Origin: a bacterium
GTDB lineage: Bacteria > UBP14 > UBA6098 > JAFGQG01
Reading direction: 5' to 3'
Length of the DNA: 38,341 bases
NCBI GenBank assembly: GCA_016930435.1
Contig: JAFGGQ010000058.1
Location: 1 to 38,341, forward strand
Shown here: piece after piece, positions 1 to 29,603 of the stretch
Layout of the letters: every line of letters starts with the position of its first letter
Numbering within the stretch: position 1 is the first letter of the stretch
Notes under the pieces: generated by a model
Told to the model about the DNA's origin: nothing
The model's database searches: none
The model's input: only the letters and a program-made list of their open reading frames with translations
Made by a program: the position numbers and the translations under genes

Positions 1-3000
1 AGAGTGAGAAGGTCCATTCCCCGTCGCAGGGGATATTCACTTCGTAGATATGGTCTTCGGCATACATCATAGAATTAGGATCGCAGTTATCGATTGCTCC
101 GCAGGTGGAATCCTCCCAGACTCCGGGGGCAGTAACAACGAAATCGGGTATGCAGGTATCTACGGGTACGATAATTAACTCATAATTACCGCAACTGGAG
201 TACCCTTCGATATCCACGTAATAAGTATCGGCTATCAGGTTAGCGAGTATCTCTGACTGCAATCCACAAGCATCGTCATTTATAGCGATGTCATCCCAGC
301 AGCATTCGGTACCGAGTGCCATCCAGGTATCATAAGAAGAGCCACAGAGTGAGAATAACCAGTATCCGGTGTAGGGGATAAAAACTTTATGGATATGATC
401 TTCAGTAATTTGAAGATCGCAATGGTTACCCGCTCCGCAGGTGGAATCGGTAACAGTGTCCGGTGCAATAATAAAGAAATCAGCGACACAAGGAGACCAT
501 GGCAAGCACCCCAGGGATGCTACATAATCATTAATACAGGGGTATTCAAAAAGGGTATCGGGAGCAATGTAGAACCAGTAAATGCCGGGAGCGATAGTAT
601 CCACTATTACCAGGGTATCGCAAACCAAACCGGTATCGGCAGCCATAGGAGGCATGGGTGGGCAGCCAAAATTCCCATCATAGAGGTATGTAACTACTGG
701 GAAATCTGCATATACCGACCAAATTACGATTATAGATTCAGCGGTGAAGAATTGATACCAATCAGTATCACGGAATCCGGCATCTGCCCAGGCTGATCCG
801 CAGATGGTATCACCGCAGAATACGGGAGTAAACCGAGGGTCAATGGCATTATCGCATCCGCCATTAGAATCATCCCCGCAGGGTTCGGGTTCTAAAATAG
901 CAGTAACTGGGCATTCCTGGATGCATTCCCATTCCTCGATGAAGAGGTCAAAAGAATCGATGCAGGTTGGTGAAGGCCAGGTGTCGATCATGAGGTAATA
1001 GGTGTCCGGAGTAAGCAGCATTCTTTGCCAAACCCGGGGCGCAGCAGTAGAGCCGGTAAGGATATTCAAACATGTTTCTCCGGGAGGACAAAGGGTATCT
1101 ATAAGTATCCCGCTCCAGGTAGAAGAATATGGGTCCATAGTGATATTGACCACAATGGGGCTGGTAACTACCAATTCGTAGATGATATCCTCTCCGCCAT
1201 CGTAGTATCCCAAACAGGTTGAGTCATAATCATTTACCCGGCAGCAGGTGGACTGATTGAAGTCGGCATAGGGCAGATCAGATGGTAGAAAGATTGTAAT
1301 AGGGTTATCGCAGTTATCCCCCTGGCCCCTGTTAATATTCAGGATGTAATCGCCGCAGTTGGTCGAATATCCATCCACGACCACGTAATAGTAACCGGCA
1401 ACGAGGGTCCAGACCACTTCGGATTGCAACCCACAGTAGTCATCATTGTATGCAATCAGGAGGGAGCAGCATTCTTCAAAAACAGCGATCTTGGTGTCAT
1501 AAGATGATCCGCAGAGTGAGAATGTCCATTCCCCGTCGCAGGGTATCTCCACTTCATATATATGATCTTCAGATTGAAGGGCGGGAGTTCCCGGGTTACA
1601 ATCATCACCGGCGCTGCAGGTGGAATTCTCCCATGTTCCGGGAGCTGTCACCGAAAAATCGGGGAAGCAGGTCGGTGGATACTCACAATGCAGGGAGAGC
1701 ATATACAAATTGGGGCAAGGGTAGTCATAGAGAATGTCAGGGAACACTACAATGACAAATTCAGTAGCCGGGAAGTATAAGGAATCTACCATTAACACTG
1801 TATCGCAGTTAGTAGTTAAGAGACTATCGATCACCCGGAGGCTGTCGCAACCTTCAGTGATATCATAAAGGTATAACCAAAGGGGTATTTCGGTAACCAG
1901 GGAGATATGAGTATAAGTAGTGCCAGCGGTGGGGGTGAACCAGTACCAGTCGGCATCTCTGGCACCTCCGTCGGCCCATGTAGTAGCGCAGAAGGTATCC
2001 TCGCAGAATATCTGTGTATAGAGTGACGCGGTAGGATTGTCGCATCCGCTGTTAGAATCATCACCGCAGGGTTCCGGCTCAGGAATTGCGGTAACCGGGC
2101 AGATTACGCAGGGCGGACATTCAGTGATCTCAATAGTATAATTGCCGCAAGTATCACCGTATCCATCGACCACGATATAGTAATCAAGACCAGCGGTCAG
2201 GTAAATACCCAGGAGTTCGGGTAGAAAAGCAGAAGTGAATGAATCGGAGGAACAAGCATCATCGTTGCAGGCAATAGGAGCGCTTCCACATGAATCTTCA
2301 TAAATATACATCTTTGCATCGAAATCAGTAATGCCTGTACAGAGGGTCAGGTTGATGCAGATATTTTCGCTGGGGGAATATCGATACACGACATCAGGGG
2401 CGGTGGAGCCGGTGTAAGGGCATACTTCGTCATAATCATCATTGAATCCGCAGGTATTTCCGGTATCGGAAAAAGGTATTCCATGAATTACAAAAGGGCT
2501 TTCGCAATTATCACCTGGGCTGGGAAGCAGGCAGAAGGCTAAATCGACGTCTAAAATACTATAACCATAGCCATCGTTTTGATAGCTAAATTCGTTAGGT
2601 CCATAACCAGATAACCAGAGGAATACGCATGAATCGCCATCAGCGCCCTGGATGGATACCCAGCCATTATCGGTAGAACAGCAAGGTTCAAAATAAGTCA
2701 AATAATGATTCAGTTCGAACATACCAAAGAAGGTTTCCCCTTCGGGTTCTGCAACAATAGGCAGGGTATAGGCGCATTGGGTATCTCCGGGGTATCCATT
2801 GGTGTCATTATAGAACACAATAGAAAAAAGCATGGTATCGGAGAAACATTCGTACCAACCGGTATCAAAGTAATCATCAAATCCCCAGAAGCTGATCCCG
2901 CAGATGGGTTCTGTAACTCCGGAGAAATCGTCGAACACGGTATATGGGAAATAGCTGTCGCTGGTATATGCAGCAGCTTCGGTTTCCAGTGTGCCATGAT

Positions 3001-5932
3001 AAGATTGGGAGTAAATAGCGCCAGGAGGGCAGTGATCGGGAGGAATGAACTCTTCGATATAGAGGACATAGGCTCCGCAGGTGTCGTAGCCCTCGATCGT
3101 GAGATAATAGGTCCCGGCTTCCAGATATTCCCTGATAAAGGAATGTAAATCGCAGAAGTCGTCGTTAATAGCGATGTCATTACTGCAGCAGTAAGATCCC
3201 AGTGCAATCCAGGTATCGAAGTCGCGGTCAGAATCACAGAGGGAAAAGTCCCAGTAACCAGCATAGGGTATGATTACTTCGATAATATGGTCTTCAGTGT
3301 TTCTAAGTCCGCAATCATCACCTTCGCCACAGGTGGTGTCGATGATGGTGTCCGGTGCGGTGACTATATAATCAGGCACACAGGCAATTCCCCTTATTTC
3401 CAGATCGAAAGTGGTATTAATGGAAATGGGGTCATCCATCATCAGGCGGCTGATGGATGGGTCGGAGTCGATCATAAGGTAGTATGTCCCAGCCCGAAGG
3501 GAGTATGTCATCAGGGAGCATCCGCCAGCCATTGCAGTAGCAACGGAGTATAAGCAACTTGCTCCGGGAGGACAGACAGTATCTATAAGAAATCCGGTTC
3601 CGGCTGAATCAGTGCGCATGATTATGTCAACGATGAGATCGGTTGTAACGGTCAGTTCATAAATAATATCTTCACCGGCGTCATAAGGAGCCAGGCAGGT
3701 GCCCCAATAATTATTCACTCTTCCGGCGGTGGTTTGGTCGTTATCGAAGAATGGTAGCATAGCGGGAAGGGTTATTTCGATTGGATTTTCGCAGCTGTCG
3801 CCGGGATTTTCGTAAGTAATTGAAGCCAGGTATTGGCTTCCGCATTCGATCCCGTCGAAAACTTGCGGAGCGACGAAGAACCAATAGATGCCGGGTTGGA
3901 GGTAGGGTGTGGTTACACTGACCTCGATACATGGTTCGGCGGTTCCCCAGGGGTCGATAGTACCCAGTATTGCGCCGCAGTCAGGAATGCCGGGCGGGTC
4001 CGTAGGTACCAGTCCCATAGAAACCGGGAATTCTGCAACTACCGTCCAGGTCAGCACACCGGAATTTAATAAAACCAGCTCAAACCAGTCGGTATCCCGG
4101 CTGCCCCATGCGCCGGATTGGGCGCAAACAGTATCGCCGATATCAATGGGGAAGAATACTGGAGGAGAGCTGTTGCATCCGCCGTTATGATTATCTACGT
4201 AACCCACGGAGCAGACCGGCTCATCTTCTAAAATAGCGGTTGCCGGGCAGATTACCTGGCAGGGATAAACGGAGAAGACATATTCACCGCAGCTATCCTC
4301 GTAATGAGATTCTATTACAACGAAATAGGTATCTGCTTCCAGGTACATACTGATCTGGGATTGTGAGCTGCATGCTTCAGCGTCGTCGTTAACGCCCAGT
4401 TCATAAAAGCAACATTCTCTGCTAAGAGCGATCCAGGTATCGAAAGAGGAGCCGCAGGTAGAGAAGGTCCAGTAAGCTCCGAAGGGAAGTATAACCTGGA
4501 AGATATGCTCTTCAGATGGCATCAGGTCGCAATCGTTCCGGGCTTCGCAGAGTGATCCCAGTACGGTATCGGGGGCGGTCATCACGAAATCCGGGAAGCA
4601 AGGTCCGCTCTCTTTGACCTCAAGATGAAAGCTTGGAATGCAGTCTGGAAATGGCCATGTATCAATCATCAGGTAATAGGTTCCGGGGACAAGGTCAATG
4701 TTCCTTTCCCGGTAAGGGGAACCTGTAGGATTAGTGCTTACAACGATACAATCGGAATCAGGCGGGCAGATTGAGTCCAGGCTGAATCCAGTCCATGGAG
4801 TGCCCAGAGGATCCACCATAATATCGATGGAAATAGGCACGGTTACATTTAAGCGGTAGATTATATCTTCCCCTCCGTCATAGGGTGACAAACAAGTGGA
4901 ATCGTAATCATTTATCCGTCCGCAGGTGGTTTGGAAGAGGTCAATAAATGGCAAGCTTCCGGGTAGATTGATCTCTATGGGGTATCCGCAGGTATCGCCG
5001 GGGAATACAATAGCCTCCGTCAAGCAGAAGGCTTGATCGTAGTAGCGTTCAACTAATACCCCGCTTTGCAATTGATAGCAAAAGGAATTTGGCCCGGAAC
5101 CACTCATCCAGAGAAACCAGCAGGTTGTGTCTCCCTGGCCCATAATGGAGACCCAGCCGGAATCCAATTCACAGCATTCATCGAATTCGGCATTGAATTC
5201 ATAAAGATAGTAACCTGAGTAAGTGTTCCAGGTGTTCACCATGTTAAGGGTTTCAGCGTATGTGCATACGATATTTCCGGGTGCGCCGGTATCCTCATAA
5301 AAGGTGATCAGGAAGGGCATCGGGTCTTCCTCACAATTGGTCCAGCAGCAAGCCAATACTAATCCCCAGAAGTGAATGTCGCAGATGGGAGCGGTAATCC
5401 CATGGAAATCGTCATATATTATATAACCGGGATTTTCTTCACTGGTAGCCGCGCTCCAGCCTCCTTCGGGGGATATTGGGGTTTGACCATAAATTGTATT
5501 CAAGGGACAGACTAAAGGCAGGGGAGGTTGAGGACATTCCGTTTCAGTGATCTCTATTGTGTAGTTACCGCAATCCCCGCCGTAACCGTCAATGATTATA
5601 TAATAAGTGTGTCCGGGGTTGAATTGCAGTCCTTGAAGTTCGGAGACAAAGCTAAAGGGGTCACCACAGAAATCATCATTGCAATCAACGAGAAACAGTG
5701 TATCCCCGCAAATGTCTTCAAAAACATAAAGCTTGGTGTCATAGTATGTGATACCTGTGCAGAGGGTGATATCAACACAGATGGTTTCAATAGCGGTGTA
5801 AGCGTAAACGACATCCGGAGAAGTGGATCCGGTATAGGGGCAGGCTACATCGTAATCATTGTTGAATCCGCAGGTATTTCCGGAATCGCTGAATGGGATC
5901 GAGGGAACCGGGAATGGATTAGTGCAACTGTC
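1..5932 (-). repeat. Protein-level modular repeats, five families in a mosaic order
   Basis: Within the giant gene, my residue boundaries are: A1 172-303, B1 304-482, C1 483-615, D1 616-728, E1 729-881, C2 882-1021, D2 1022-1138, B2 1139-1310, A2 1311-1445, E2 1446-1592, D3 1593-1708, C3 1709-1840, E3 1841-1985, D4 1986-2097, D5 2098 to the edge. Family marks: A has NTCGFN.DYD..CPYTGST.PDVVY; B has DDF.G.T.PIC.I.FWG and GWVSI; C has GDxC..PI.I.LP followed by GGEDIIY and IDT.CPPG; D has C.PDF.VTAP, TEDHI, FS.CGSS.DTW and NDD; E has CP.TAI.E.EP.C, then RD.DW and G.YWF.IAP. Boundaries were set at recurring cysteine landmarks and are accurate to a few residues. The order is A-B-C-D-E-C-D-B-A-E-D-C-E-D-D. 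Confidence 0.82.
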
Positions 5933-6445
5933 CCCAACTGCCATTGTGGAAAATGGGCGGTACAATGCCCGGCCGCCGGAATTATTTAAACGAGCATCTT
6001 TGGCTTCTATTAATTGTATCGCAGCATTATTAAAGGAGGAAGAGGAAAGCTCGGCCCTGTTTGTAAAAGAGAGGATTTCATTGGATTTTCTGTTACAGCC
6101 CGGGCAGGGAACGGTCTTCACCTTTGCGCCATGCCTGGATATATTACGGGCGTTGACTCCTTCCGGAGGGGTAGAACTCAAGGAATTTAAGGAAAGTGCT
6201 TTAGAATCACCCGCAGGGAGTATCGGTTCGGCGGAAAGCACCTGGTTCGCTTCAGAATCAGCTTTCAGCGGCTTAACCGGCCTTTCCCTATTGGATACAT
6301 GACTGCTTTGTGAAAGATAACCAGCGTCCATCCCTTCAGGGGGATCTTCTGCCCAGGTTTTAGTTGAAAAAGTACCGCCGATTAACAACACAACCGCGGC
6401 AACCAAAGCAACGCTGGCCAATAAAACTACCAGGTTCTTTTTCAT
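1..6445 (-). CDS. Giant secreted cysteine-rich modular protein, C-terminus beyond the window
   Basis: Reading the minus strand from the ATG at 6445 gives one frame with no stop down to base 1, so at least 2148 residues are encoded and the end is missing. An AAAGGA Shine-Dalgarno-like site precedes the ATG by 7 nt. Residues 1-32 are a signal peptide (MKKN, then a long hydrophobic stretch, then TWAED). Residues 33-171 are low in cysteine except for a single CPGC at 114-117. From residue 172 on there are about fifteen 112-179-residue beta-rich modules of five families (see repeat entry). Recurring motifs are SLCGSSYDTW, AINDD, GTYYLMIDTWP, DGYG.TCGNYTIEI and GGEDIIYEL, which resemble bacterial pre-peptidase C-terminal (PPC) domains. 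Cysteines are frequent and paired, implying disulfides outside the cytoplasm. No catalytic domain is visible in the part present. Role unknown; a surface or extracellular structural or binding protein is an inference. A C-terminal sorting domain may lie off the edge. Confidence 0.9.
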   Translation of the reverse strand, partial: MKKNLVVLLASVALVAAVVLLIGGTFSTKTWAEDPPEGMDAGYLSQSSHVSNRERPVKPLKADSEANQVLSAEPILPAGDSKALSLNSLSSTPPEGVNARNISRHGAKVKTVPCPGCNRKSNEILSFTNRAELSSSSFNNAAIQLIEAKDARLNNSGGRALYRPFSTMAVGDSCTNPFPVPSIPFSDSGNTCGFNNDYDVACPYTGSTSPDVVYAYTAIETICVDITLCTGITYYDTKLYVFEDICGDTLFLVDCNDDFCGDPFSFVSELQGLQFNPGHTYYIIIDGYGGDCGNYTIEITETECPQPPLPLVCPLNTIYGQTPISPEGGWSAATSEENPGYIIYDDFHGITAPICDIHFWGLVLACCWTNCEEDPMPFLITFYEDTGAPGNIVCTYAETLNMVNTWNTYSGYYLYEFNAEFDECCELDSGWVSIMGQGDTTCWFLWMSGSGPNSFCYQLQSGVLVERYYDQAFCLTEAIVFPGDTCGYPIEINLPGSLPFIDLFQTTCGRINDYDSTCLSPYDGGEDIIYRLNVTVPISIDIMVDPLGTPWTGFSLDSICPPDSDCIVVSTNPTGSPYRERNIDLVPGTYYLMIDTWPFPDCIPSFHLEVKESGPCFPDFVMTAPDTVLGSLCEARNDCDLMPSEEHIFQVILPFGAYWTFSTCGSSFDTWIALSRECCFYELGVNDDAEACSSQSQISMYLEADTYFVVIESHYEDSCGEYVFSVYPCQVICPATAILEDEPVCSVGYVDNHNGGCNSSPPVFFPIDIGDTVCAQSGAWGSRDTDWFELVLLNSGVLTWTVVAEFPVSMGLVPTDPPGIPDCGAILGTIDPWGTAEPCIEVSVTTPYLQPGIYWFFVAPQVFDGIECGSQYLASITYENPGDSCENPIEITLPAMLPFFDNDQTTAGRVNNYWGTCLAPYDAGEDIIYELTVTTDLIVDIIMRTDSAGTGFLIDTVCPPGASCLYSVATAMAGGCSLMTYSLRAGTYYLMIDSDPSISRLMMDDPISINTTFDLEIRGIACVPDYIVTAPDTIIDTTCGEGDDCGLRNTEDHIIEVIIPYAGYWDFSLCDSDRDFDTWIALGSYCCSNDIAINDDFCDLHSFIREYLEAGTYYLTIEGYDTCGAYVLYIEEFIPPDHCPPGAIYSQSYHGTLETEAAAYTSDSYFPYTVFDDFSGVTEPICGISFWGFDDYFDTGWYECFSDTMLFSIVFYNDTNGYPGDTQCAYTLPIVAEPEGETFFGMFELNHYLTYFEPCCSTDNGWVSIQGADGDSCVFLWLSGYGPNEFSYQNDGYGYSILDVDLAFCLLPSPGDNCESPFVIHGIPFSDTGNTCGFNDDYDEVCPYTGSTAPDVVYRYSPSENICINLTLCTGITDFDAKMYIYEDSCGSAPIACNDDACSSDSFTSAFLPELLGIYLTAGLDYYIVVDGYGDTCGNYTIEITECPPCVICPVTAIPEPEPCGDDSNSGCDNPTASLYTQIFCEDTFCATTWADGGARDADWYWFTPTAGTTYTHISLVTEIPLWLYLYDITEGCDSLRVIDSLLTTNCDTVLMVDSLYFPATEFVIVVFPDILYDYPCPNLYMLSLHCEYPPTCFPDFSVTAPGTWENSTCSAGDDCNPGTPALQSEDHIYEVEIPCDGEWTFSLCGSSYDTKIAVFEECCSLLIAYNDDYCGLQSEVVWTLVAGYYYVVVDGYSTNCGDYILNINRGQGDNCDNPITIFLPSDLPYADFNQSTCCRVNDYDSTCLGYYDGGEDIIYELVVTSPIVVNITMDPYSSTWSGILIDTLCPPGETCLNILTGSTAAPRVWQRMLLTPDTYYLMIDTWPSPTCIDSFDLFIEEWECIQECPVTAILEPEPCGDDSNGGCDNAIDPRFTPVFCGDTICGSAWADAGFRDTDWYQFFTAESIIVIWSVYADFPVVTYLYDGNFGCPPMPPMAADTGLVCDTLVIVDTIAPGIYWFYIAPDTLFEYPCINDYVASLGCLPWSPCVADFFIIAPDTVTDSTCGAGNHCDLQITEDHIHKVFIPYTGYWLFSLCGSSYDTWMALGTECCWDDIAINDDACGLQSEILANLIADTYYVDIEGYSSCGNYELIIVPVDTCIPDFVVTAPGVWEDSTCGAIDNCDPNSMMYAEDHIYEVNIPCDGEWTFSL

Positions 6446-6626: not shown

Positions 6627-7553
6627 TTATAGCTCATCAGGCAAACAGGTGATAGTAATCGCAATACTGTGTAATCCCATAGCATTAACACCCGAAGAAG
6701 TAGTGGGCATGATAAGATTCAGCCATAAAGCGATTTCCTTGTTTGGCGGTACCTTTTCTCCTTTCGAATTAAAGCCGATCGCGAAAGCTGGTCCCGATGC
6801 GATTTTAATGGCTTTGGTAATAACATCATCGTTGTAAATTTCATTAAAAGAATTATAGTCAACTTGCATAAAGTCTTTTTCGGTGAGTAAAGCTGAAAGG
6901 GCATAGGTGTTAATATCAATGCCCTTGATGCTATCCGCTGCCATCCAGCCGTCCTGCTCATGTGCATCTTCCTGGCTTATGGAAAGTGCATATTTTTGGT
7001 ATCCATTCCCTAAATTCTGCAGTATTATTCTCTGGTCAACACCAGTTATATGAGAACTGGCGGGGCGCAGATCGCGGCCCACAAACCAGTAATCCGGTTG
7101 TGCGGAGAAGGCCAGGTGCTGCTTTAATAGCGGCCCGTTGCGGAGGTGAGTGGAATATGTCCGGTTTCCATCGGAAGCGGAAAAATAATAGGAAAGATCA
7201 TTGTACCTTCCGGGAACGAAGGAGAGTACAAGCGTGGTAAAATAGATAACGCCCTTCTGATAATTTGTGCCCTTGAGCACCTCAAGCGGAAATTTTTCCG
7301 ATTCACTGAAGAAACCATCATCATTGGTGTCAATACTTGCTATGATCCAAAGGGGAGGGGCACCTTGAGGGTGCTGATACATGATTTGAAAGGTGAAATC
7401 TGTGGCCTTAGAGCCGTATTCCGGTTCAAGCCCATCGTTTTCGAAACCGGGTGAACCCACCCACTTTAAAATGCTGACGGTATTCCCGTAACTGCTTGCA
7501 GTAAAGGAAATTAGCAGCAAAAAAATGATGGCAGAAAGGTGAAATTTTCTCAT
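6627..7553 (-). CDS. Secreted protein of unknown function with an EF-hand-like loop
   Basis: The 308-residue product starts with a clear signal peptide (residues 1 to about 23, MRKFHLSAIIFLLLISF then SSYGN). I do not recognise the family. Residues 75-86 read DTNDDGFFSESE, which fits the 12-position calcium-binding loop of EF-hand/dockerin type (D1, N3, D5, G6, S9, E12). The rest looks beta-rich, with aromatic strands such as YNDLSYYFSASDGNRTY around residues 115-135. It follows the response-regulator gene in the same direction after 86 nt and lies upstream of the giant secreted gene. Its location points to the periplasm or outside. A single loop without its partner may still bind calcium in secreted proteins; that is an inference. 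Confidence 0.75.
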   Translation of the reverse strand: MRKFHLSAIIFLLLISFTASSYGNTVSILKWVGSPGFENDGLEPEYGSKATDFTFQIMYQHPQGAPPLWIIASIDTNDDGFFSESEKFPLEVLKGTNYQKGVIYFTTLVLSFVPGRYNDLSYYFSASDGNRTYSTHLRNGPLLKQHLAFSAQPDYWFVGRDLRPASSHITGVDQRIILQNLGNGYQKYALSISQEDAHEQDGWMAADSIKGIDINTYALSALLTEKDFMQVDYNSFNEIYNDDVITKAIKIASGPAFAIGFNSKGEKVPPNKEIALWLNLIMPTTSSGVNAMGLHSIAITITCLPDEL

Positions 7554-18431: not shown

Positions 18432-20519
18432 CTATTCTATTTTAACCAGAAATATCTGTTCATCCTGGTAGGCCATGATTCTTTCCACATCGGTCTTGTA
18501 AAGCTGGTAATCAGCAACCGGTATGCGCAGGGTCTTTCGCTGGAATTCATTGGTGAACAGGATTTTATTATCTTTCTCGTTATAACTTGCCTTGTAGCTT
18601 ATATGGGCATTCTCCAGTTCTATTGGCTGTGGGAGAAATTCGACCTTGTAACCCTCCGGGATTTCGATGGTTATATGGTTGGAGACCATCTCGGTCATAT
18701 CCATCTTCAGCCCGTATTTTCGGGTTCTCAGGGCTATCTCGGGAAAATCAAGCTGGCTGCCCGGGACATCAAAGATCATCAAGTCGCCGGCGAAAATGGG
18801 GTATTGGTCAATAGTATAACTGGTGTGGATGTAGAAAGGGAGGGAAAAATCAACGGGATTTTCCAGCTTTAGGTTTTGGATTACCGCACCGGGACTTTCG
18901 GAGTTCAGCCAATTTGAGAAGACCTCCTCATGCCGCGCCTCCGGCGTGTAGGCGAAGAAAGCACGATAAGCCACTTCCCAGTTTCCGGTAAAACTGATTG
19001 TCTGATCCATCTCGACCTGTCCGTCAGGGTGCAGCTTAAGGGTAGCCTCCTTTCTCCGGGCGTTATCCTGAGGGGGTATAGGCGGAATATAATTTATTTC
19101 CCTCTTGATATAATTGACATATTCAAGATCGCAGTCCCCCATGGAGTAATAGGGGAAGCGGAAGAAATTGTTGGTGGCGTCCAGGATTATCTTTTTACCG
19201 TTCAGGTGAACTTCATTGATAGCATGATTTCCACCCCAGAGCGGGAAGCTTCGGCGGTCAAGGTAACCCCCATCATTGGTCTGTACTATGATAGGGTAGC
19301 TTTCAACCCCGATCACCTTCAGCATGCTGGAGAAAAGGATGGCCTTATCTATACAGTCGCCGTATTTATTATTCAGGGTATATGAGGCGGGATGGCCGGC
19401 GATACCGGAGCCAAGACTGCCCTTAACCGAAATATAGCGGATATCCTCCTGTATATAGTGGTAGAGTTTCGCTACTTTTTCCTCAACAGTTTCCGCGCCC
19501 TCTACTACTTCCAGTGTCTTGGCCTCGATCTCCGGGGTTACCTCTATCCGCTTCTCATGGAACTTGCTGAATTTATCGTAAAAATAATCCATGTTATCAT
19601 AAAGGCTCCCCATTAATAAGGGAGCTATATTATAAAAGGAAGGCATATAGGGTTCTTCGATCAAAGGAGGGGTATCCCTTACCTCCCAACGATAAATACG
19701 CGATGCATTTGTAGTAGATATAACGGGTTCTTCTGTACCCTCAGGCATCAGATAGGTTATGTAGTTCAGCTCACGGTCCTTGGGGAGCTCTACCTCGATC
19801 GATGAGTAATACATGGGCTCTTCACTCTGAAAGAAAAAACGGGGCGCGAAAAGATTAGGGTCATCCGGAGCATATTGATTTTGTTCAAATGCATATTCAA
19901 CTATAGAACCGATCTCCACATCGGGAATGGTAAAGCTGTAGATCTTACCCTTTCCGAAGAAAGCCATATCCCGGGAAGGTTCGGAAATTGTTACATTAGC
20001 CTTGTCGAATTCGCTAACATCCCCGGCTGGGGATATTGACCTGGCGAACAGTGCGTAGGATTCTGATTCCCCTTCATCATAATAAAGGGATATCTCACCC
20101 CAATTCAGTGCGTCAGTAGAAAGAACTTTCCCCACAAAATGATACCGGAATACTATTCTACCATCGTTTGTGAGAATGTAATTGCCCTCATCATAGAGAA
20201 TAAGACCTGAAGCTTCCGGATATTGCGCTTCCATCTCCTGTGCAATACGGAGATATTCTTCAACCTGAGATGATTGTATGGCAGCACTTTCAGTCGCACT
20301 TTCAGACTCCTCCTGATGCTGGAAGTATATCGACTTTACGTCGTCCCGGGAGATTTCCTCCCCGTTTTCCAACTTAAATTTTTCCTGATCATAGGTAATA
20401 TTGCCCGATTCCTGGGTGTTCTGGTCGATCAGCTCTAATTTGTCTGCCTGAGCAATACCTGCCAGTAAAAGTATGATTAACATACTAATTAATGGTGCAT
20501 TCATTGCTTTCTTGAACAT
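18432..20519 (-). CDS. Secreted DUF3857 / transglutaminase-like protein
   Basis: Translation probably starts at the ATG at 20519, which has GGGAGG 4 nt upstream; the frame extends 18 codons further but those lack support. The 695-residue product has a signal peptide (1 to about 25, ending IAQADK), a DUF3857 region (about 125-300), and a transglutaminase-like domain (about 330-465) with C389 in YGDCIDKA, H432 in NHAINEVHL and D447 in LDATNN. The triad is intact, so it may act as a peptidase or transglutaminase, though substrates of this pairing are generally unknown. The C-terminal part (about 490-695) is beta-rich. A Glu/Ser-rich stretch lies at 69-85. Location is periplasmic or extracellular. 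Confidence 0.88.
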   Translation of the reverse strand: MFKKAMNAPLISMLIILLLAGIAQADKLELIDQNTQESGNITYDQEKFKLENGEEISRDDVKSIYFQHQEESESATESAAIQSSQVEEYLRIAQEMEAQYPEASGLILYDEGNYILTNDGRIVFRYHFVGKVLSTDALNWGEISLYYDEGESESYALFARSISPAGDVSEFDKANVTISEPSRDMAFFGKGKIYSFTIPDVEIGSIVEYAFEQNQYAPDDPNLFAPRFFFQSEEPMYYSSIEVELPKDRELNYITYLMPEGTEEPVISTTNASRIYRWEVRDTPPLIEEPYMPSFYNIAPLLMGSLYDNMDYFYDKFSKFHEKRIEVTPEIEAKTLEVVEGAETVEEKVAKLYHYIQEDIRYISVKGSLGSGIAGHPASYTLNNKYGDCIDKAILFSSMLKVIGVESYPIIVQTNDGGYLDRRSFPLWGGNHAINEVHLNGKKIILDATNNFFRFPYYSMGDCDLEYVNYIKREINYIPPIPPQDNARRKEATLKLHPDGQVEMDQTISFTGNWEVAYRAFFAYTPEARHEEVFSNWLNSESPGAVIQNLKLENPVDFSLPFYIHTSYTIDQYPIFAGDLMIFDVPGSQLDFPEIALRTRKYGLKMDMTEMVSNHITIEIPEGYKVEFLPQPIELENAHISYKASYNEKDNKILFTNEFQRKTLRIPVADYQLYKTDVERIMAYQDEQIFLVKIE

Positions 20520-20913
20520 TAAACCTCCCGTAATATAAAGGTGTTTTAGACTTCTGCTATCTACGTAAATCATTTGTTTACTTTTCTTTGTCTCATTACA
20601 ATTTCATAAAACTGATTTTTACATGAAATCAAAAAAAAAGACATTAACCTAAAAAAAAACTTGACTTTTAAAAACCTCGCTTTAAATAATAGCACATTGA
20701 AAATAAATGGTCTATAAACAGTCCATTATTCTTCAACAGATAACGAAAATAAACATACTCCTTAACAAAGCAAATAAAAAATCTTTTTTGTTGACTAAAA
20801 AGTAATTTGTATTATAATTGTTATAAGTTCATTAGTCTTGTCAAAACCCCAAAAATGCTTTTCAATGCGCTGTCGGAATATTTTATTTTAAATTCAACAA
20901 AACAATATTTATT
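20520..20913. promoter_or_regulatory. AT-rich divergent intergenic region
   Basis: This 394-base gap separates the minus-strand transglutaminase-like gene from the plus-strand LytR_C operon. It contains the plus-strand promoter at 20791-20818 and a second TTGACT at 20661-20666 with only a poor -10 (AATAAT at 20685). Several A runs are present. No reading frame is convincing. Confidence 0.6.
20791..20818 (+). promoter_or_regulatory. Sigma70-type promoter for the LytR_C-rsfS-argS group
   Basis: TTGACT at 20791-20796 and TATAAT at 20813-20818 are separated by 16 bases, matching the consensus at 11 of 12 positions. Transcription would start near 20825, about 90 nt before the first start codon. 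Confidence 0.65.
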
Positions 20914-27527: not shown

Positions 27528-29603
27528 TTATTTCAGCAATAGTGTCCGGTGAGTTAATGTGGCATTCTCGGTTTTAATACGGATATAATAGATGCCGGAA
27601 GGCTCTCCCCTAAGGTCTGCCTTGAATAGATTCGTTCCAACCTCCAGCGGTATCCGGTAAACCTCCTTCACCATTCTGCCACGGACGTCCAAAATTTTAA
27701 TTGTAGCATAACCGGTGGTAAGGGAATTGAAGATTATTGTTGTGCTTTCGTTGAAGGGATTGGGGTAGCTGCCCAGCAGTTTGCAGTACGGTTTAATTAC
27801 CGGAGATGAGTTGATCCCTGTTCCCTCAACGTATGCTTCCCAGCAGGTGTTAAGGGTGTTGGATCCGCAGATATCCACTATGTCCCGGGCATAAATGCAG
27901 ACTTCCAGTGTATCGCCCAGCTCCAAAGTGATCCCGGTCCGGTCAAAATCCAGGGTTAAGCTGTCATTTGAGTAAGAGAGGATGCCTCCTGAAAGGTCAA
28001 AGCTAATCCCGTTAAGTGTAAGCAGAATAGATTCCCGGTGGATACTGCTGTAGTCCCACAAACCAATGATCACGGTATTGAAGTCCGGGGCAATGGAATC
28101 GCCCTCACCGGGCAGGGCGGTGATTATCTGCGGCGGAATATTGTCGATATAGAATTGATAGTTATAGGCCGAATCCATGGGAATACCGGCTATATTCTCG
28201 ATACCGGAGATTTCGACATCGATAGTATCATAAGTGGCAAATGGGCTTACTGGGATAAAGATAACTGAATCCCCGGAAACGGTTACGGGTCCGCCGTCGG
28301 GCATATAAGTTGCTCCGTTTACGGTGATTTGGATGGTGCCGGGATCGATTCCCAGGCGGTCGGTTATCCGGAATATGATATTCTGGTCGGCGCAGGCGGT
28401 AGTCTGGCCCGGTCCGGGTATGAAGCCATAAGCAAGCGGCCCTTCACTGGTTTCAACCGGGGGATCGATGAATAGTCCATAGATATCAGAGTCGTAGGTA
28501 TTCCGGTAATCCCCCCAGACAGCCAGAAAGCGGATGCCGTTCCATGCTACTGCAACATCCTGCTGACCGGCTAAAGCATCACAGACAATGAAATCGGTGT
28601 CTAAAAGGTTCCCATTCCAGGTTACCCATTGGCCGTAGATATCGCTGTACAATCCGCTTCGGTCGTCCTGCCAGGCAGTGAGGTAGGCGGTACTACCCCA
28701 TACGGCATCGGAATTGGACTGGTTGGCATTAAGTAGTGAGATGGGTAAATATGCCGGAAAGACCTCGCCCGTAGTGGAGATTTTGCAGCCGAAAACATCG
28801 GTATAGGTAATATAATCATAATTTTGCCAGGTGAGGAAGAATGTAACCCCATCCCAGGTGATCTCCGGGAAATTAACCGATGGGGCCTCCCTAAGCAGGG
28901 TGATCGGTTCGCTCTCGGGATTGCCTTCGCAGTCCAGGAAGCGCCCTGTAAGTCCGATATGGTCGCTGGAATCCCGGTAAACGGCAAGGTAGTTTTCTCC
29001 GTTCCAGGCAAGGGTGGGTACGGTGAATTTCCCGGCACGTGGTGAAATATAAAGGGCCGTATCAACGGGACTGCCCGTGGGATCAATCAGAAGCCCCTTG
29101 ATCCGGATGGTTTCCGGCGTTTGACTGTCCTGCCATAACACCAGAAAATTATCGCCATTGGAAGCTACGGTTAAACGCGATTTATATGATGGCGTGGAAG
29201 TGACCCGGGAAGCCGAAGAAGTAAAAGAAAGGGTTTGTGGATCAAAGTAACGGCAGAAAAGTTGAGGGTATTCACTGACCTCATGGTCTAACCAGATAAT
29301 GATAAAAAGATCACCATTCGAGCCTACTGCAGGGGAGGTCTGGTTGCCGTCATCTGTGCTTATAGCATAACCCGCTGTGGGGGACGCCCCTTCAGCAGGG
29401 ATGAACTGGCCGTATATATTAATATTGGTTGTGCCCCGCCGGTAGTCCTCCCAGGCAATAAAGAAATTTGTGTCGCAGACACTTATTGAGGGATATTTCT
29501 GATCCATACCGGCATAGGAAATGGCTATCTCCTGGGCCCGGGAAAGAGAAGTTCCCATGAATAGCAATGTTAATAAAACCAGAATAAATGATCTTCTAAG
29601 CAT
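27528..29603 (-). CDS. Secreted beta-propeller protein with Ig-like domains and a T9SS-type sorting domain
   Basis: The 691-residue protein has a signal peptide (1 to about 23). Seven blade-like repeats follow (about 40-380), each with a pattern like FLAxWxDxR...DIYGxxVxxxG, starting near residues 47, 99, 152, 204, 255, 306 and 358; seven fits one closed propeller. Two Ig-like domains lie at about 390-488 and 489-595. Residues about 609-691 form a sorting domain (GSYPNPFN at 611-618, ILDVRGRMV, SGIYYIRI), like those of type IX secretion or FlgD-Ig-type C-termini. It is thus likely exported and cell-surface attached or released. No enzyme motif was seen. Confidence 0.88.
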   Translation of the reverse strand: MLRRSFILVLLTLLFMGTSLSRAQEIAISYAGMDQKYPSISVCDTNFFIAWEDYRRGTTNINIYGQFIPAEGASPTAGYAISTDDGNQTSPAVGSNGDLFIIIWLDHEVSEYPQLFCRYFDPQTLSFTSSASRVTSTPSYKSRLTVASNGDNFLVLWQDSQTPETIRIKGLLIDPTGSPVDTALYISPRAGKFTVPTLAWNGENYLAVYRDSSDHIGLTGRFLDCEGNPESEPITLLREAPSVNFPEITWDGVTFFLTWQNYDYITYTDVFGCKISTTGEVFPAYLPISLLNANQSNSDAVWGSTAYLTAWQDDRSGLYSDIYGQWVTWNGNLLDTDFIVCDALAGQQDVAVAWNGIRFLAVWGDYRNTYDSDIYGLFIDPPVETSEGPLAYGFIPGPGQTTACADQNIIFRITDRLGIDPGTIQITVNGATYMPDGGPVTVSGDSVIFIPVSPFATYDTIDVEISGIENIAGIPMDSAYNYQFYIDNIPPQIITALPGEGDSIAPDFNTVIIGLWDYSSIHRESILLTLNGISFDLSGGILSYSNDSLTLDFDRTGITLELGDTLEVCIYARDIVDICGSNTLNTCWEAYVEGTGINSSPVIKPYCKLLGSYPNPFNESTTIIFNSLTTGYATIKILDVRGRMVKEVYRIPLEVGTNLFKADLRGEPSGIYYIRIKTENATLTHRTLLLK

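Follow-up and report, generated by a model that had tools for sequence, protein, structure and literature searches.

What kind of protein is encoded by the very long reading frame that opens contig JAFGGQ010000058.1 of the bacterial assembly GCA_016930435.1 (GTDB lineage Bacteria; UBP14; UBA6098; JAFGQG01), and how did it come by its many shuffled, cysteine-rich modules? The stretch analysed here, hereafter 'the window', is the entire contig (38,341 nucleotides; C90 of the genome G000, which comprises 2.85 Mb in 180 contigs and is 90% complete), so that this assembly allows no extension of the gene. Its product is very probably a mosaic of divergent modules of the pre-peptidase C-terminal (PPC) type, interspersed with one further kind of module, and the order of these modules has demonstrably been rewritten between two related genera; it is on this point that the finding is strongest.

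A giant frame of fifteen modules

The frame lies on the minus strand and, as an earlier note made from the letters alone had claimed, is uninterrupted over 2148 codons and extends beyond the window; it has no stop and exits at the contig end. About 15 modules of five families had been read in it, and their order, A-B-C-D-E-C-D-B-A-E-D-C-E-D-D, with the last one cut by the contig end, was reproduced exactly. Within families, modules matched one another by blastp at E values of 8e-52 (A), 3e-31 (B), 2e-33 to 2e-47 (C), 1e-11 to 3e-41 (D) and 2e-8 to 1e-36 (E), and composition-preserving shuffled modules, used as a control, gave no match at 1e-5. The parts of the gene are listed below; modules were recognised by blastp, and for B2, E3 and D4 the structure was predicted as well.

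2..6445, minus strand: giant open reading frame, 2148 codons; its positional orthologue in another genome assembly is likewise a single long frame
6347..6445, minus strand: putative Sec signal peptide, about residues 1-33, recognised by eye (charged start, then a long hydrophobic stretch)
5936..6346, minus strand: N-terminal linker, residues 34-170 (about 135 residues), unconserved in the orthologue
5510..5935, minus strand: module A1, PPC-like
5000..5509, minus strand: module B1, a distinct beta-sandwich with a weak DUF7901 match at residues 319-389
4607..4999, minus strand: module C1, PPC-like
4256..4606, minus strand: module D1, PPC-like
3803..4255, minus strand: module E1, PPC-like fold
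3389..3802, minus strand: module C2
3035..3388, minus strand: module D2
2516..3034, minus strand: module B2, modelled
2108..2515, minus strand: module A2
1676..2107, minus strand: module E2
1322..1675, minus strand: module D3
920..1321, minus strand: module C3
497..919, minus strand: module E3, modelled jointly with D4
158..496, minus strand: module D4, modelled jointly with E3
2..157, minus strand: module D5, of which the contig includes only the first 52 residues

Module order in two related genera

Genome G001 belongs to the same family as G000 and represents a sister genus. Its contig C64 carries the positional orthologue of the giant gene: nine of the 11 neighbouring genes tested are collinear at 50-77% identity, namely a gene for a 308-residue protein that adjoins the giant gene in both genomes, a two-component pair, two TPR genes, and AsnA, MgtE, M48 and UbiA. 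ApbE and the window gene at 18432-20573 had no counterpart in the G001 stretch examined. The C64 protein reads A-D-E-D-E-D-E-D-E-C-D-C-D-A-D-A, and shares with the window protein a longest common subsequence of 9 modules; shuffled orders give 8.7 on average, so the likeness does not exceed random. The N-terminal linkers of the two proteins likewise gave no significant alignment when these regions were compared by blastp. Further paralogues in G001 have yet other orders: D-E-E-E-D-D-A-E-D-A-D (C102), D-C-D-C-D-D (C90, complete), D-D (C50) and C-C-C (C82).

In trees of the individual module families (D, E, C and A), copies from different proteins are interleaved, many nodes being modestly supported, and D modules are 50% identical within the window protein and 48% identical between it and the C64 protein. 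Since identity within the protein is about that between the proteins, most duplications seem to be older than the split, and whole modules seem to have been moved, lost or exchanged afterwards. The repeated recombination proposed in the earlier note is thus supported by the differing order of the orthologue and by the interleaved module trees, and counting homologues and module orders in related genomes, a check which that note had suggested, showed that the orders differ. The gene would evolve through duplication, loss and exchange of whole modules among paralogues.

The orthologue also bears on the possibility that metagenome assembly fused unrelated repeat units, to which we assign a practically negligible chance. 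The contig does stop inside a D module, and repeated modules assemble poorly; but module copies diverge at roughly 30-70% of residues, too far apart for an assembler to confuse them, and the orthologue in an independent assembly is one long frame in the same place, on which ground an artefact was rejected. A curiosity of a lone genome was dismissed as well, because the syntenic orthologue exists.

The missing 3' part was sought in G000 with the protein and with a profile of module D, and only pieces of other paralogues were returned (contigs C45, C106 and C13). Positions 1-2291 of C45 encode another protein with a D module, the end of which has a divergent, possibly chimeric tail, and positions 3-2543 of C106 encode, in a single frame, a B module and after it a right-handed beta-helix. 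The ends of C45 and C106 have 17 bases in common, and the two may be parts of one other gene; as they do not resemble a continuation of the window gene, they were left unjoined to it.

Kinship, fold and distribution of the modules

The five families had been taken as independent and as something new, and neither view held. Modules A and C share ancestry with D, as blastp matches show (A1-D3, 3.7e-10; A1-C1, 1.3e-5), and E, more distant in sequence, belongs yet to the same fold class according to structure prediction. An AlphaFold2 model of E3-D4 (predicted local distance difference test score, pLDDT, 90.1; predicted template-modelling score, pTM, 0.62) falls among the beta-sandwiches of PPC and collagen-binding domains in the PDB: its best match was 5iku, the tandem collagen-binding domains s3a-s3b of Hathewaya ColG (E 2e-11), and it also matched 5sv5, a solved PPC domain (template-modelling score, TM, 0.74 by target length; root-mean-square deviation 3.5). 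Many bacteria have these modules, and four of the five families are members of a PPC-like beta-sandwich superfamily. Profile searches and structure prediction, which the earlier note had proposed as checks, thus place the E-D pair close to PPC domains and ColG, and show that Pfam mostly misses these modules. The window protein gave no match to PPC (PF04151) above the Pfam cut-off, and a relative of module D did: locus L091, from a metagenome-assembled genome (MAG) of the Phycisphaerae, exceeded the cut-offs both for PPC (28.8 against 25.9 bits) and for GBD_T9SS_assoc (63.2 against 27). Matches to PPC below the cut-off were found for a D module of Zixibacteria (E 0.0019) and an E module of a planctomycete (E 0.026).

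Module B is probably the sole separate family, a second kind of beta-sandwich as judged from its model. It has no blastp link to A, C, D or E, and B2 was modelled with confidence as an all-beta sandwich (pLDDT 90.3), for which a fold search of the PDB gave E values of 0.007 and up, mixed folds and no convincing match. Residues 319-389 in B1 resemble DUF7901 (E 0.0019; 18.6 bits against a curated cut-off of 24; 71 of 205 positions).

Within the class, the window protein has matches in 4 of 17 genomes. A scan of 84,980 named genomes for module E, made with the single pattern [GST]xRDTDWYQ and therefore a biased sample, yielded 35 loci in UBP14, Planctomycetota, Zixibacteria, Cloacimonadota, Calditrichota, Eisenbacteria and Delongbacteria, among others, many of them with mixed architectures that include A, C, D or B; no relative was found in viral contigs. 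The module kit is widespread, and the UBP14 proteins are the longest mosaics within this sample. Locus L099 (5807-11462, from a MAG) is a tandem array of five adjoining genes, each for a short A-E protein. Proteins of the C-C-C type (L035, L037 and L038) have as their last residues repeated acidic motifs such as PGNEGLDLRDGEEIDL. At L039 (G024, contig C74), E-E and E-A proteins end in repeats that look dockerin-like by eye (GDLN...DVV), which suggests another mode of anchoring elsewhere.

Export, cysteines and a proposed role

The sequence looks exported, as the earlier note had read it. Genome G000 encodes the type IX translocon protein SprA (SprA_N match on contig C77, E 1.7e-32), which is present in 14 of the 17 class members, including all nine most complete ones. 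G000 also has about 138 matches to the sorting domain Por_Secre_tail at E <= 0.001, most of them over the cut-off. For a candidate phylum, one SprA together with so many tails makes up a large type IX secretome. We propose that Sec would export the giant protein first, the putative signal peptide being cleaved, and that an outer-membrane route, possibly type IX, would follow.

A second C-terminal feature came to light in G001, where the complete paralogue L033 (923 residues) and a second paralogue, L036, end in a domain of 145-155 residues without a Pfam match. A profile of this domain found 1-21 copies in each of the 17 class genomes and none in 44 other genomes (loci L033, L036, L042, L045-L059 and L126-L136, besides one in the window). 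The domain lies within five residues of the protein end in 28 of 28 distinct copies, the endings being mostly -LP, -LY or -LD, and its hosts are otherwise dissimilar, many frames having 2000-3800 residues. From this distribution it looks like a typical C-terminal sorting or anchoring signal, and it could be a new one for export or anchoring. The window features concerned are the following; no Rfam or tRNA match was found in the window.

6627..7553, minus strand: gene next to the giant one, 308 residues, secreted-looking
6684..7115, minus strand: diverged copy of the class-specific C-terminal domain within that gene, whose G001 counterpart has one too
27528..29603, minus strand: example of a Por_Secre_tail match

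A broader proposal, possible though rather doubtful, is that the giant gene and its paralogues form a recombining cassette system, in which divergent binding modules would be reassorted within and between loci to provide every lineage with its own multivalent surface binder, and the class-specific domain, which would export and anchor it, would be an undescribed sorting signal beside the usual type IX one.

Cysteine makes up 5.8% of the giant protein against a mean of 0.77% in the other genes of the window, and 0.2-2.8% in sampled other type IX-tailed proteins of G000. Such a content would suit a surface trap for metal or sulfur species in an anoxic setting, whose cysteines would bind these and form no disulfides, as would the finding that G000 has no match to VKOR, DsbB or Thioredoxin_4 (DsbA-like); but with a genome 90% complete and a search that covered these oxidation proteins only, the missing matches are no evidence against disulfides. 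The earlier note had spoken of regular cysteine pairing; what the alignments show is conservation of cysteine columns within each module type (eight are invariant in D), much like those of PPC domains for which disulfide bonds are assumed, and relatives from other phyla are equally cysteine-rich. We hold a trap to be very improbable.

Disulfides could also stiffen a stalk or sheath that acts as a spacer for the C-terminal part or for the cell, the modules being mainly structural and without binding of their own. Bead-like repeats, the high cysteine content and the long unconserved N-terminal linker agree with such a spacer, yet five kinds of module in variable order are not needed for one, spacers usually being uniform repeats, and what the E3-D4 model matches best is a tandem of binding domains. 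On these grounds a mere stalk appears unlikely.

No enzyme domain had been visible to the earlier reader, and Pfam supports this for the visible 2148 residues, which include no protease to which the modules could be C-terminal. The modules might still be accessories of a secreted enzyme or a polymorphic toxin with its catalytic domain in the missing C-terminus: PPC domains typically stand beside proteases in the literature, and the C106 frame of G000 joins a B module to a beta-helix. Against this, L033, the sole complete D/C relative, lacks an enzyme domain and has at its end the class-specific domain, which also terminates L036, and we regard the idea as quite improbable.

The earlier note had suggested a surface fibre or adhesin; surface location, fibre shape and adhesion are predictions. 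The reading that we prefer, with moderate confidence, is that the giant protein would be a multivalent adhesin of the cell surface or matrix that binds polymers or particles. Many weak, partly different modules in a row would together hold polymers, particles or cells firmly through multivalent contacts. Binding of collagen has been demonstrated for the PPC domains of bacterial collagenases (PMC6168687); collagen as a ligand is not implied by the likeness to ColG. Several points weigh against an adhesin of PPC-like modules. The C-terminus is missing and could comprise an enzyme, a toxin or an anchoring domain, and ligand binding is a prediction by analogy. PPC domains can serve as aids to folding or secretion instead of as binders. 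The pTM of 0.62 makes the domain orientation in the E3-D4 model uncertain, and the alignment-wide TM to 5iku is low (0.33-0.35). In whole-protein searches, finally, the window protein stays below every Pfam, NCBIfam and PDB-sequence cut-off, and the PPC assignment accordingly rests on fold and on relatives.

In this gene, PPC-like modules that Pfam largely misses have expanded to an extreme degree and in shuffled order, and a comparison at one and the same locus captures the rewriting of that order. Should the modules bind polymers, nature would here offer a set of parts for multivalent binders, and a hint of the means by which an uncultured candidate phylum clings to particles or biomass.

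Among known systems, we found no direct account in the open-access literature of an architecture that combines multi-PPC proteins with type IX secretion. The likeness of B1 to DUF7901 (PF25470) is short and below the cut-off, and that to GBD_T9SS_assoc (PF23759) is strong in the D relative of L091 (63 bits), whereas the window's own D modules have no match. Multi-module A/C/D/E proteins of Zixibacteria and Planctomycetota (for example L090, L092, L089 and L101) have the same kinds of module in varying order and are cysteine-rich, but do not exceed about seven modules in the loci examined and have other C-terminal parts (Por_Secre_tail in L094, dockerin-like in L091). PPC and collagen-binding domains are extracellular beta-sandwiches of about 110-140 residues that occur in tandem, as the modules described here are predicted to be, and the E-D model matches ColG s3a-s3b. 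The window protein differs from them in being cysteine-rich, in its sequence, which falls under the Pfam cut-off, and in showing no protease; and where PPC domains usually come in one or two copies after a protease, it has at least 15 modules of several kinds.

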